Part shown: positions 29,532 through 34,094 of the stretch, piece by piece
Position numbering within the stretch: position 1 is the stretch's first letter
Layout of the letters: every line of letters begins with the position of its first letter
Source of the DNA: Sphaerotilus sulfidivorans
GTDB lineage: Bacteria; Pseudomonadota; Gammaproteobacteria; Burkholderiales; Burkholderiaceae_C
NCBI RefSeq assembly: GCF_013426975.1
Contig: NZ_JACCPY010000004.1
Location: forward strand, 62,001-126,000
Reading direction: 5' to 3'
DNA: 64,000 nt
Program-made: the position numbers and the translations under genes
The notes under the pieces: model-generated
Seen by the model: the letters and a program-made list of their open reading frames with translations, nothing else
Database searches by the model: none
What the model was told of the DNA's origin: nothing

Positions 29532-31235
29532 ATGGCATTTCCCTCCCTGACGGCAGCCCGCGATCTCGGCCGGCTGCAGGAGATCGCGGCGGTCTTCATT
29601 CGCCACGGCCTGGGCGATCTGGTGCGCCGGCTCGGCTGGGCCGATCGGCTGGCCCGCGCCGGCCATGTGCTGCGCATGGACCATGCCGCCGACCTGGCGC
29701 GGCTGGATCCGCCGGTGCAGCTGCGCATGGCGCTCGAGGATCTGGGGCCGACCTTCGTCAAGCTCGGCCAGATCCTGGCCGGCCGCGCCGACCTGTTCGG
29801 TCCGGCCTGGATCGCCGAACTCGAAAAGCTGCACAGCCAGGCGCCGACGGTGCCGATCGAGGTGGTGCGCGCCCAGCTCGCCGAGGACCTGGGCGCGCCG
29901 CCCGAGGAGGTCTTCGCCCGCTTCGATGCCGAGCCGCTGGCGGCGGCCTCGATCGCGCAGGTGCACGGCGCGCAGCTGCACGACGGCACCGAGGTCATCG
30001 TCAAGGTGCGCCGGCCCGGCATCCGCCCGGTCATCGAGGCCGATCTGCGCCTGCTCGAGCGCCTGGCGCAGCTGGCCGAGGACGAGTGGCCCGACCTGCG
30101 CCCCTACCAGCCGGCCGGCCTGGTGCGCCAGCTCGGGCGCTCGCTGCGCCGCGAGCTGGACCTGCAGAGCGAGTGCCACAACGCCGAGCGTGTCGCCGCC
30201 CATTTCGCCGGGCGCGAGCACATCGTCATCCCGACCGTCTACTGGGACTGGACCGGCGAGCGGGTCAATGTGCAGCAGCGCATCGACGGCATTCCCGGCC
30301 ATGAGCTGGCGCGGGTGGACGCCGCCGGGCTCGACCGCATGCTGCTGGCGCAGCGCGGCGCGCAGGCGGTGCTGAAGATGATCATCGAGGACGGCTTCTT
30401 CCACGCCGATCCGCATCCGGGCAATGTCTTCTACCTGCCGGGCAACCGGCTGGCCTTCATCGATTTCGGCATGATGGGCCGGCTCAGCGATGCGCGCCGT
30501 GACCAGCTGCTGTCGCTGATGCTCGGCCTGGTGCAGCGCGATCCCCAGGCGGTGGTCGAGGTGCTGATGGAGTGGACCGAGGATGCCGGCCACACCGACA
30601 TGGAGGCGCTGCAGCAGGATGTGGTCGCCTTCGTCGACCAGTACCGCGGCACCGCGCTGGCCAAGCTCAGCCTGGGCGGGATGATGAACGATGTCACCAC
30701 CATCCTGCGCGAGTACCGGCTGGCGCTGCCGGCCGATCTGGCGCTGCTGGTCAAGACCTTCATCACGCTGGAGGGGCTGGGGCGCTCGCTGGCGCCCGAC
30801 TTCCACATGGCCACCGAGGCCGAGCCGCTGCTGGAGGCGGCGGTGCGGGCGCGCTACTCGCCCCGGGTGCTGGCCGAGCGGGGCTGGACCTCGGCGGTGC
30901 ACGGCCTGCGCCTGCTCGGGCGCCTGCCGCGCGAGGTCGCGCGCATGCTGCGCCAGACCAAGCGCACCGGCGTGCAGGTGCATGTCGAGGTGCGCCATCT
31001 CGAACGGGTGGTCGACCAGCTCGACCGTGCGGTCAGCCGGCTGACGGTGGCGATGGTGGTGGCCGCGCTGATCGTCGGCTCGTCCATCGTCATGACCGTG
31101 CGGGGCGGGCCGATGCTGTTCGGGCTGCCGGCCTTCGGGCTGCTGGGGTTCCTGATCGCCGGCATCGGCGGCATCTGGCTGGCCTGGTCGGTGCTGCGCA
31201 GCGGCCGGGCCGCGCGGGTGGCGCATCGGGACTGA
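29532..31235 (+). CDS. ABC1/UbiB-family atypical kinase
   Basis: Membrane-anchored protein-kinase-like ATPase of 567 residues. It has the KxGQ motif in FVKLGQILAGR, the alanine-rich nucleotide loop in AAASIAQVHGA, the catalytic HADPHPGN segment and the DFG triad in FIDFGMMGRL. Two hydrophobic helices near the C-terminus (VAMVVAALIVGSSIVMTV and FGLPAFGLLGFLIAGIGGIWLAW) anchor it. UbiB itself supports ubiquinone synthesis, but this gene is not beside other ubi genes, so a paralogous role is possible. It starts 11 bp after the peptidase gene. Confidence 0.88.
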   Translation: MAFPSLTAARDLGRLQEIAAVFIRHGLGDLVRRLGWADRLARAGHVLRMDHAADLARLDPPVQLRMALEDLGPTFVKLGQILAGRADLFGPAWIAELEKLHSQAPTVPIEVVRAQLAEDLGAPPEEVFARFDAEPLAAASIAQVHGAQLHDGTEVIVKVRRPGIRPVIEADLRLLERLAQLAEDEWPDLRPYQPAGLVRQLGRSLRRELDLQSECHNAERVAAHFAGREHIVIPTVYWDWTGERVNVQQRIDGIPGHELARVDAAGLDRMLLAQRGAQAVLKMIIEDGFFHADPHPGNVFYLPGNRLAFIDFGMMGRLSDARRDQLLSLMLGLVQRDPQAVVEVLMEWTEDAGHTDMEALQQDVVAFVDQYRGTALAKLSLGGMMNDVTTILREYRLALPADLALLVKTFITLEGLGRSLAPDFHMATEAEPLLEAAVRARYSPRVLAERGWTSAVHGLRLLGRLPREVARMLRQTKRTGVQVHVEVRHLERVVDQLDRAVSRLTVAMVVAALIVGSSIVMTVRGGPMLFGLPAFGLLGFLIAGIGGIWLAWSVLRSGRAARVAHRD

Positions 31236-31330
31236 CGCGGGATTGATGTACCTGCCTCGTAACCGAAAAGGATTTTCATAGACCAAGTCAACAGGATGGT
31301 CTTTTGTGGCTCCTCTTGATCAGGAACCTG

Positions 31331-31381
31331 GGGTTTACCCTAAACTCCTGCCATCAACCAAGGGTTTTCCCTAAGGAGTTT
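31331..31381 (+). promoter_or_regulatory. Repeat-containing leader that can mask the ribosome-binding site
   Basis: Two near-identical 13-mers, GGGTTTACCCTAA (31331-31343) and GGGTTTTCCCTAA (31362-31374), start 31 bp apart, close to three helical turns. AAACTCCT (31342-31349) is exactly complementary to AGGAGTTT (31374-31381), which holds most of the AAGGAG ribosome site of the next gene; inside the loop AGGG-TTTT-CCCT can form a small hairpin. The region may be a protein operator, an RNA switch or both. Confidence 0.45.
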
Positions 31382-31384
31382 GTG

Positions 31385-31648
31385 ATGGCCCAGATCCTTG
31401 TTCCCGTTCAGTCGCAGGCTTTTGCTGCCGCCCAGGCACCGCTGGTCCGTCTGGTCGGCTGGCTGGTCGATCAGTGGCAGGCCGCGATGAAGGCCGCCCA
31501 GAGCAGCCTGCAGCCGCGCGAGCCGCGCACTGCCGAAGAGCTGATCGAGTGGGCCGGCCGCTATGAGGCCACCCAGCCTTCGTATGCCGCCGACCTGCGT
31601 GCCGCCGCGATGCGCGCCCAGCAGATCACCGGCAGCCGCTCCATCTGA
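31385..31648 (+). CDS. Small protein of unknown function
   Basis: I do not recognise this 87-residue protein. It begins MAQILVPVQSQAFAAAQAPL, has an amphipathic helix (LVRLVGWLVDQWQAAMKAAQ) and a polar C-terminal half with PRTAEELIEWAGRYEATQPSYAADLRAAAMRAQQI, which looks like a small helical domain. The ATG at 31385 sits 6 bases after AAGGAG (31373-31378), a strong ribosome site. Coding character (length, RBS, high GC third positions) supports a real gene. It stands alone between the UbiB-like gene and the thiolase terminator. Confidence 0.75.
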   Translation: MAQILVPVQSQAFAAAQAPLVRLVGWLVDQWQAAMKAAQSSLQPREPRTAEELIEWAGRYEATQPSYAADLRAAAMRAQQITGSRSI

Positions 31649-31674
31649 CGCTGACGCTAACGCAGGCGCAAAAA

Positions 31675-31698
31675 AGGCCGGTCGTCGCCGACCGGCCT
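31675..31698 (-). terminator. Rho-independent terminator for thiolase gene
   Basis: GGCCGGTCG (31676-31684), loop TCGC, CGACCGGCC (31689-31697) forms a perfect 9-bp stem, extended by A-T to 10 bp. On the minus strand it is followed by a run of six T, so it ends transcription of the thiolase gene about 85 bp after its stop. The plus-strand side lacks a T-run but could still slow transcription from the small gene. Confidence 0.85.
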
Positions 31699-31783
31699 GT
31701 GAACGACCTCTGAATCGAGGCACGCATGAAAGAGGTGGACGGTGCCGGCCGGATGCGGCCTCACCGTCCCGGGCGTCTGCCGA

Positions 31784-32965
31784 TCAGCAGCGCTCGAAGA
31801 TCGCCGCGATGCCCTGGCCGCCGCCGATGCACATCGTCACCAGCGCGTAGCGGCCGCCGGTGCGCTGCAGCTCGTAGACCGCCTTGGTGGTGATGATCGC
31901 GCCGGTGGCGCCGATCGGGTGGCCCAGCGAGATGCCCGAGCCGTTCGGGTTGACCTTGGCCGGATCCAGGCCCAGTTCCTTGTTGACCGCGCAGGCCTGG
32001 GCGGCGAAGGCCTCGTTGGCCTCGATCACGTCCATGTCGGCGACCGTCAGGCCGGCGCGCTCGAGCGCCTTGCGCGAGGCCGAGACCGGGCCGATGCCCA
32101 TGATGGTGGGCTCGACGCCGGTGTGGGCGTAGGAGACCAGGCGGGCCAGCGGACGCAGGCCGTGGCCCTTGACCGCCTCGCCGCTGGCCAGCATGACCGC
32201 GGCGGCGGCGTCGTTGATGCCCGAGGCGTTGCCGGCGGTGACCGCGCCGTCCTTCTTGAAGGCCGGGCGCATCTTGGCCAGGCTCTCGGCGGTGGTGTCG
32301 GCCTTGATGTGCTCGTCGGTCACGAAGCTGATCGTGCCCTTGCGGCTGGCGATCTCCACCGGAACGATCTGCTCGGTGAAGTAGCCGGCGGCGGTGGCGG
32401 CGGCGGCGCGGCGGTGGCTCTCGGCCGCGGCCTCGTCCATCTGCTGGCGGCTGATGCCGAACTGCTCGCCGACGTTCTCGGCGGTGATGCCCATGTGGAT
32501 CTTGTGGAAGGGATCGTGCAGCGCGCCGACCATCAGGTCGACCAGCTGCGCGTCGCCCATGCGGGTGCCCCAGCGCGCGCCGGGCATCAGGTAGGCGCCG
32601 CGGCTCATGTTCTCGGCACCGGCGCCGATCGCCACTTCGCAGTCGCCCAGCAGGATGGCCTGCGAGGCCGAGATGATGGCCTGCAGGCCCGAACCGCACA
32701 GGCGGTTGACGTTGAAGGCCGGGGTCTCCTTGGGCAGGCCGGCGTTGACCGCGGCGACGCGGCTCAGGTAGCAGTCGCGCGGCTCGGTGGTGACGACCGT
32801 GCCCATCGCGAGGTGACCGACGGCGTCGGCCGGCGCGCCCGAGCGGGCCAGGGCTGCCTTGACGGCGGTGGTGGCCAGATCGGCCAGAGGAACGTCCTTC
32901 AGCGTGCCTCCGAACGTGCCGATCGCGGTGCGTGCGGCGCTGACGACAAAGACTTCACGTGCCAT
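31784..32965 (-). CDS. Acetyl-CoA C-acetyltransferase (thiolase)
   Basis: Thiolase of 393 residues, joining or cleaving acetoacetyl-CoA in polyhydroxybutyrate synthesis or acyl-CoA breakdown. The nucleophilic cysteine is in NRLCGSGLQAIISASQ (about 88), the histidine in GHPIGATGAIITTK, and the second cysteine in MCIGGGQGIA. The ATG at 32965 follows GGAGGAAG; upstream extension overlaps the divergent gene. No phaB or phaC is nearby, so the pathway is not fixed by context. Confidence 0.92.
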   Translation of the reverse strand: MAREVFVVSAARTAIGTFGGTLKDVPLADLATTAVKAALARSGAPADAVGHLAMGTVVTTEPRDCYLSRVAAVNAGLPKETPAFNVNRLCGSGLQAIISASQAILLGDCEVAIGAGAENMSRGAYLMPGARWGTRMGDAQLVDLMVGALHDPFHKIHMGITAENVGEQFGISRQQMDEAAAESHRRAAAATAAGYFTEQIVPVEIASRKGTISFVTDEHIKADTTAESLAKMRPAFKKDGAVTAGNASGINDAAAAVMLASGEAVKGHGLRPLARLVSYAHTGVEPTIMGIGPVSASRKALERAGLTVADMDVIEANEAFAAQACAVNKELGLDPAKVNPNGSGISLGHPIGATGAIITTKAVYELQRTGGRYALVTMCIGGGQGIAAIFERC

Positions 32966-33032
32966 GGCTGTCTTCCTCCGGAAAAATCGGTGTGCGGGGT
33001 TGCCACAGTACTTGTCCTCCTCTACAGCGAAC

Positions 33033-33063
33033 TGACGCCGCGCAATGTCACACTGCGGCGTCA
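33033..33063. promoter_or_regulatory. 9-bp inverted repeat reaching the start codon
   Basis: TGACGCCGC (33033-33041) and GCGGCGTCA (33055-33063) are perfect inverted copies with a 13-nt spacer; the last base is the A of the downstream ATG. It could be an operator in the thiolase/EEP divergent region or an mRNA hairpin that limits initiation. Confidence 0.35.
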
Positions 33064-34094
33064 TGGATACCCCGCAGCCTTCATCGCCTGTCGCCGCGCC
33101 CGTCGAGTGGATTCCCCTGACGGTGGCGAGCTGCAACCTGCTCAACCTCGCGCTGCCCGGGCGGGTCTTCTATCCGAACCAGGAGCCCTACGGCATGGCC
33201 GAGCACGAGCGCAAGCTCGACTGGATCGGCCAGATGCTGCGCCGGCTCAACGCCGATGTCGCCGGCGTGCAGGAGGTCTGGGACGAGGCGGCGCTGAAGG
33301 CGGCGGTGGCGCGCAGCGGCCTGCAGTCGATGCAGGCGCTGGCCCCGGGCGCCGAGACCGGCGCGCAGGGCACGCCGCGCGTCGGTCTGGTGACTCGGCT
33401 GAAGGTCGAGGCGGTGCGCAGCCTGGCCGAATTCGGCCCGGGCGAATCGGTCGTCGTGCCGGAGGTCGGCGAGCATGCCCGCTTCGAGCGCCCGGTGCTG
33501 CATGCCACGCTGCGCACCAAGCGCGGCCAGCGCCTGCATGTGCTGGTGGCGCACCTCAAGTCCAAGCGCCCGAAGTTCCTGCAGGACGCCGAGGGCCGCG
33601 CGCTCGAGGATCGCGACGATCCGCGGGTGGCCGCGCGGGCGTCGCTGCGCTCGATGATCATGCGCGGGGCGGAGTCGGCGGCGCTGCGTGCGCGGGTCAT
33701 CGAGCTGATCCACCGCACCCGCGATCCGCTGGTGCTGCTCGGCGACATGAACGACGGCCCGCATTCGGTCACCAGCCAGCTGATCGCCGCGACGCAGGCG
33801 GTGGCCTACGACCGCCAGGCCCGCGATGTCGCGCTGTTCCATGCGCTTGATGTGCAGACCGAGCCGGCGCTGCGCCGCGATCTGGCCTATTCGCATGTCT
33901 TCCAGGGCTGGCCCGAGCTGCTCGACCAGATCTGGGTCAGCGAGGAGTGGGTCGGCAGCTCGCGCTTCGCGCTGGGCGACGTGCGCCGCGTCGAGGTCTT
34001 CAACGACCATCTGCACGAGGGCCGCGACCGCACGCGCAGCGACCACGGCTTCGTGCGGGCACTGCTGCGGCTGAAATCCTCGCCCGCCGCCTGA
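33063..34094 (+). CDS. Endonuclease/exonuclease/phosphatase family protein
   Basis: Metal-dependent phosphoesterase of the EEP (DNase I-like) superfamily, 343 residues, no signal peptide. Signature parts are VASCNLLNLALPG near the start, the metal glutamate in AGVQEVWDE, LHVLVAHLKSKRP, LVLLGDMNDGP (DxN) and the C-terminal RSDHGFVRALL. A charged stretch (about 180-215) after the HLKS strand is an insertion. It may act on nucleic acid, phospholipid or inositol phosphate. No operon partner is clear. Confidence 0.88.
   Translation: MDTPQPSSPVAAPVEWIPLTVASCNLLNLALPGRVFYPNQEPYGMAEHERKLDWIGQMLRRLNADVAGVQEVWDEAALKAAVARSGLQSMQALAPGAETGAQGTPRVGLVTRLKVEAVRSLAEFGPGESVVVPEVGEHARFERPVLHATLRTKRGQRLHVLVAHLKSKRPKFLQDAEGRALEDRDDPRVAARASLRSMIMRGAESAALRARVIELIHRTRDPLVLLGDMNDGPHSVTSQLIAATQAVAYDRQARDVALFHALDVQTEPALRRDLAYSHVFQGWPELLDQIWVSEEWVGSSRFALGDVRRVEVFNDHLHEGRDRTRSDHGFVRALLRLKSSPAA

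Follow-up and report, generated by a model that had tools for sequence, protein, structure and literature searches.

Paired near-palindromic sites at the putative promoter of a small-protein gene in Sphaerotilus sulfidivorans: a probable tandem operator with copies at other promoters of the order

The small gene and its leader

The window, i.e., the whole 64,000-nucleotide stretch of Sphaerotilus sulfidivorans DNA that was analysed, carries a gene for an 87-residue protein (87-residue ORF, 31385-31648). The leader holds two 13-mers, GGGTTTACCCTAA at 31331-31343 and GGGTTTTCCCTAA at 31362-31374, which are spaced 31 bp start-to-start, as well as an exact 8-bp complementarity between AAACTCCT (31342-31349) and AGGAGTTT (31374-31381) and an inner AGGG-TTTT-CCCT at 31361-31372. 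All of these elements were found as an earlier note on this DNA had described them. The 13-mers are copies of a near-palindrome, AGGGTTWWCCCT, that is kept upstream of the small gene's relatives. The features of the locus, partly predicted, are the following (A1 denotes the alignment of the window with six close relatives):

31316..31321, forward strand: putative -35 hexamer TTGATC, 4/6 to TTGACA, with a 19-bp spacer; hexamer and spacing are identical in L034, L035, and L036
31330..31341, no strand: predicted operator 1, GGGGTTTACCCT, 1 mismatch to AGGGTTWWCCCT; present in 7/7 rows of A1
31341..31346, forward strand: putative -10 hexamer TAAACT, abutting operator 1; TAAACT, TATACA, or CATACT stands there in the six relatives
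31353, forward strand: predicted transcription start, placed about 7 nt downstream of the -10 from the position of that hexamer
31361..31372, no strand: predicted operator 2, AGGGTTTTCCCT, matching AGGGTTWWCCCT without a mismatch; located 3' of the predicted start and 5' of the Shine-Dalgarno sequence
31373..31378, forward strand: Shine-Dalgarno sequence AAGGAG, invariant in the 7 rows of A1
31385..31648, forward strand: small gene (87 aa); C-terminal motif EELIEWAxxYEATQPSYAADLRAAA in close relatives

Predicted operator 1 is placed inside the promoter spacer and shares the first base of the putative -10. The putative promoter is weak, with its 19-bp spacer, and was missed by a consensus scan restricted to spacers of 16-18 bp, which found no promoter at this locus. 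Upstream, an inverted repeat AGACCA-N11-TGGTCT at 31280-31302 is followed by TTTTG and kept in L034-L036; it is perhaps a weak terminator of the preceding gene, which we take by appearance to encode an ABC1/UbiB-like kinase. On the minus strand, a strong terminator-like hairpin at 31675-31698 fits the end of the gene at 31784-33145, presumably thiolase-like by its appearance.

The 87-residue protein has no match in Pfam or NCBIfam, the two libraries scanned, in agreement with the absence of a known domain claimed earlier; a Pfam search up to E = 5 returned 0 families, with the HMMER filters dropping most matches above about 0.1. It was also rightly called conserved-looking, as matches occur in 21 of 150 genomes of the family (own genome included) and at 8 further loci in named or MAG records. 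The 23 protein matches in the 150 genomes include five with an internal stop in the matched stretch, and the weakest has an E-value of about 7e-4. By the 87-aa gene, the closest named relative is Sphaerotilus natans ATCC 13338 (95% identity). Searches of the window protein against phage records and of a small paralog against plasmid records gave no match. The AlphaFold2 model (mean pLDDT 63.7, pTM 0.34) was too weak for a fold search. At five loci (L016, L018, L019, L022, and L041), the family is represented by tandem paralogs whose N-termini have diverged and whose C-terminal motifs are similar.

The repeats were compared with shuffled sequences at up to 2 mismatches over the 13-mer. The window yields 3 such matches, two of them exact and the third differing at 2 positions; the shuffles averaged 0.41, with 1 of 100 reaching 3. 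Across the 4,393,628-base genome, the exact sequence GGGTTTNCCCTAA has 3 copies, two of them at the window locus, and 4 more places differ from it by one mismatch; its reversed control has 0 copies in the whole genome. Among 12 inverted repeats in the 501 bases around the locus, three are 100% complementary, the proposed stem included. The observation of a structured, repeated leader hence stands in part: the repeats are a real signal beyond chance, and the stem, not clearly beyond it, is not distinguishable from chance.

Conservation of the sites and their recurrence at promoters

When the 13-mer pair was sought in related genomes, both sites were found to be kept in the six close relatives of A1 while the surrounding sequence changes. 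The operator 1 position reads AGGGTTAACCCT in L037 and AGGGTTTACCCC in L038 and L012, and the operator 2 position reads AGGGTTAACCCT in all three, so that this perfect dyad occurs twice in L037 and once each in L038 and L012. Some changes in relatives complete the palindrome (GGGTTTTCCC to GGGTTAACCC). The start-to-start distance of the pair is 31 bp in the window, 30 in L037, 28 in L038 and L012, and 27 in L039; because it varies between 27 and 31 among these relatives, helical phase is not fixed. The placement on the same helix face, claimed for the window, is therefore not a conserved property, and pairs elsewhere lie 18, 24, 25, 34, or 35 bp apart. At many distant loci, a single exact-core site runs straight into a hexamer of the type CATAAT, CATACT, or TATACT, in a scan that used a short list of exact cores and could miss weaker second sites.

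Across the family, the pattern TAGGGTTWWCCCTA was found in 38 of 150 genomes, in 62 rows corresponding to 53 distinct places (9 self-complementary sites being counted on both strands), compared with 7 rows for a reversed control that is itself an inverted repeat of the same composition. One of these places, in G090, belongs to L027, where the gene downstream of it encodes a protein of the window's small-protein family; the other 52 were inspected individually and grouped by neighbouring ORF, with the labels GNAT, membrane, metallophosphoesterase, MFS, and DegS presumed from sequence appearance. The neighbours were GNAT-like genes (13), small membrane-type genes (7, of which 6 are divergent from a LysR gene), DUF3563 genes (5), the window's small-protein family (4), fadP (3), a metallophosphoesterase/60-aa protein (3), and MFS/DegS (2), and by this reading of predicted ORFs 15 sites adjoin genes seen once only. 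All five DUF3563 neighbours scored over the PF12086 cut-off, and a 90-residue GNAT-like fragment matched no Pfam family over the cut-off.

The sequence around perfect sites has the anatomy of promoters. TANNNT abuts at least one side of 56 of 65 distinct perfect sites, compared with 44% expected at 25% T, an expectation that rises if the T content is higher; a strict -10 is present at 39 of the 65. T occupies the sixth flank position in 73/130 cases and the next two positions in 51/130 and 39/130. At 45 promoter-like sites, TTGACA-like hexamers are enriched at spacers of 17 and 18 bp (mean 2.1 and 2.4 matches, compared with 0.7-1.5 for the remaining spacers in the 14-22 range), and the best TTGACA-like match was 3.33 vs 2.66 in shuffles. 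A second site lies within 50 bp in 10/130 flanks (9 distinct pairs), compared with 0/130 control stretches.

DUF3563 genes were inspected as a class, and a site with up to 2 mismatches was found at 16 of 23 in a stretch from 180 bp upstream, which is approximate for the short loci L213 and L219, the latter counting as a miss although its site is visible in L059; the control stretch gave 0/23. Six Burkholderia and Caballeronia regions were fetched. In the four Burkholderia promoters, TATAAT has a site on either side, the second of which has diverged in L231. Both Caballeronia promoters (L228 and L229) carry GGGATTACCC together with GGTAATTACCC or GGTAGTTACCC, which the pattern does not match and which suggests operator drift. 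DUF3563 (PF12086) thus resembles the window's gene in being small, of unknown function, and preceded by the same motif; it differs in that the window protein does not match PF12086 and the window's genome has no match to the DUF3563 profile.

In the window's own genome, an exact site running into TAAAAT lies upstream of a 93-aa ORF near gltA (L001), and a near site precedes an 88-aa ORF (L042) that, by eye, looks similar to a small protein encoded close to DUF3563 in other genomes (L059 and L101). A search of the own genome with AGGGTTWWCCC returned 5 rows on each strand, and the control 0 forward and 2 reverse; several of these sites lack an obvious small gene, and one (L049) is inside a long reading frame. 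Since the own GNAT-like gene has a decayed site only (3 mismatches), DUF3563 is absent, and the own fadP lacks the site (see below), a regulon would be small in this genome.

An order-wide search with CTAGGGTTWWCCCTA returned 13 of 300 genomes: five in family f4, two each in f32 and f22, and one each in f5, f10, f19, and the window's own family (which supplied 9 of the 300). In f4, sites lie at a 77-aa protein family (L190, L191, and L194) and at a 69-aa protein (L192), and all four of these loci have a second site. Of the f32 loci, L189 is identified by Pfam as a DUF3563 gene, and L188 shares its promoter and start with the Burkholderia DUF3563 genes. Sites in L193 and L196-L200 are at other genes or within a reading frame.

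Additional motifs were observed near some sites. TGCACTGCAACA or a similar sequence stands directly 3' of the -10 at several small-gene promoters (L013, L016, L017, L019, L041, L067, and L070), and TTGCATTGCAACA lies near GNAT-like genes at three loci (L056, L064, and L065); these sequences may resemble PhaR-type sites.

Alternative readings of the repeats

The repeats are probably paired DNA sites for one transcription factor, forming a repressor-type promoter of the small gene with tandem operators, as judged from the sequence comparisons above. As is expected of a transcription-factor operator, the palindrome is found repeatedly at promoters, in several genomes and at several genes, in excess of its composition-matched control, and the "operator pair" proposed in the earlier note is supported by the conservation of this near-palindromic DNA site at many promoters. 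The same note had offered an RNA switch or thermometer as the other option. On such a reading, AAACTCCT would base-pair with the Shine-Dalgarno stretch and keep the ribosome site covered until the stem is opened by temperature or by a ligand. RNA thermometers that sequester the Shine-Dalgarno sequence are known, and in the window a stem able to cover AGGAG can be drawn from the 8-bp exact complementarity. Four of the stem's 8 pairs and the complete inner set of 4 are invariant among the 7 sequences, but these bases are constrained anyway, as they overlap the -10, the Shine-Dalgarno sequence, and operator 2. None of the pairs has a compensatory change in the 7 sequences, and the stem is complete (8/8) only in the window, with 6/8 pairs in five relatives and 5/8 in L037. 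Over the alignment, 84.5% of cells pair, compared with 27-56% in slid versions, although structures derived from one row tend to exceed slid ones. Compared with shuffles, the window leader has no unusual folding energy (z of -1.23, -0.74, and -0.23 from 31325, 31342, and 31353, respectively). Four relatives were also folded; L034, L036, and L038 gave z of -0.64 to -0.72, and L037 reached -2.81, though in a different structure. An Rfam scan of 31200-31800 gave five matches up to E = 5, all under the gathering score, the best with 21.6 of 43.2 bits and on the minus strand. Moreover, the 5' arm shares bases with the putative -10 and, if transcription starts near 31353 as predicted, would lie upstream of the transcript. 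Unlike a thermometer, the window stem is thus neither conserved nor unusually stable, and its 5' arm is probably untranscribed. On the grounds of folding, covariation, and promoter geometry, an RNA switch was rejected and is regarded as very unlikely.

Among readings with DNA-binding proteins, the palindromes could instead be activator sites, e.g., for a factor that works inside a long promoter spacer. The 19-bp spacer of the window and three near relatives and the fixed position adjoining the -10 would suit such a factor; the palindrome is off-centre in the spacer, the -35-like enrichment at other sites is at 17-18 bp, and second sites can fall downstream of the start, all of which argue against it, and we consider activation unlikely. 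As to which protein would bind, a LysR-type regulator is divergent from the small gene's relatives in many genomes (G058 and others), adjoins 7 of the 52 perfect-site loci, and has gene matches in 101 of 150 genomes. Against it, no match was found at E <= 1e-60 in the window's own genome, which is 99.95% complete (15 of 38 first-look candidates scored), nor in at least five perfect-site genomes (G026, G032, G040, G053, and G061; 15 first-look candidates scored per genome). The LysR regulator was rejected over the own-genome result, obtained with 15 candidates scored, and appears extremely improbable.

FadP is described in PMC5343134 as a TetR-family regulator of fatty-acid degradation in beta-proteobacteria, and a TetR-family gene was named here after that description and from its neighbourhood. 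It was found in 138 of 150 genomes, own included; in the own genome it is followed by an ORF that looks acyl-CoA-dehydrogenase-like. FadP was favoured at first as the protein behind the palindromes, with three of the 52 perfect sites (L074, L095, and L098) just upstream of fadP. Fifty upstream regions were fetched, consisting of the 30 best matches and 20 others (own genome, G058, and 18 chosen genomes), and three in which the fadP marker peptide was not found (L114, L154, and L156) were dropped. A AGGGTTWWCCCT site at up to 2 mismatches is present in 29 of the remaining 47, compared with 0/47 coding controls, in a set where 18 of the 50 regions came from genomes picked for perfect sites elsewhere. 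A different palindrome, ACGANCGTTC or a variant of it with one base changed, is present in all 47, among them the own region; it is the likelier candidate for FadP's own, autoregulatory operator, and the own region lacks AGGGTTWWCCCT (4 mismatches). Because of this, fadP looks like a target of the AGGG sites and not their source, and FadP as the regulator was set aside as highly unlikely. Compared with the FadP regulon of PMC5343134, fadP itself is a recurrent target of the AGGGTTWWCCCT motif too, but its regions carry their own ACGANCGTTC, from which the AGGG sites are separate. The palindrome of the own fadP promoter, CTAGAGTTTCAACTCTAG (L137, G000:C81:6358-6373), has one place in the genome within 2 mismatches, and CTAGA-N8-TCTAG was seen in 5 of the 47 upstream stretches.

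The tandem-operator promoter and its possible regulon

In the preferred reading, that of a promoter with tandem operators, the leader would be the promoter of the small-protein gene with two AGGGTTWWCCCT operators for one transcription factor. A dimer bound at operator 1, in the spacer and touching the -10, would block RNA polymerase, and one at operator 2, just 3' of the start, could tighten repression, either cooperatively or by acting as a roadblock. Once the regulator is released by a signal, transcription would begin at about 31353 and yield a leader of about 32 nt. The type of mechanism, palindromic operators at a promoter, is ordinary. Tandem-operator repressor promoters are known in which a palindrome between -35 and -10 is joined by an auxiliary site; the window, L037, L038, and L012 are alike in having two palindromes, one touching the -10 and the other just 3' of the start, and in L082, L190, L191, and L192 the second site is upstream instead. 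These candidate operators differ from the known ones in that the site spacing varies.

The sites are conserved, near-palindromic, partly paired, placed next to -10-like hexamers, and shared among recurring classes of target genes. It is likely that a single factor would bind them all, and that it represses rather than activates. Promoters in the window's family and in two further families of the order would then be under the same regulator, and its targets would be uncharacterized small proteins, DUF3563, a GNAT-like protein, and the fadP operon. We lean slightly towards these sites marking an undescribed regulon, in which one regulator in three families of the order acts via AGGGTTWWCCCT on unrelated very small proteins (the window's family, DUF3563, the 77-aa ...SGSQW family, and others) and on acyl-CoA genes. 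By title, the open-licence PubMed Central papers among the matches listed contained no description of the AGGGTTWWCCCT motif or regulon, and no open-licence PubMed Central paper was found on DUF3563.

For the reading of leaders in general, the constraints of an operator, a -10, and a Shine-Dalgarno sequence can by themselves produce an apparent RNA structure. The motif joins several small unknown protein families, DUF3563 among them, into one apparent regulon, and the identity of the regulator would make the role of the small proteins testable. If the regulon is real, it would be the first handle on what these small proteins do.
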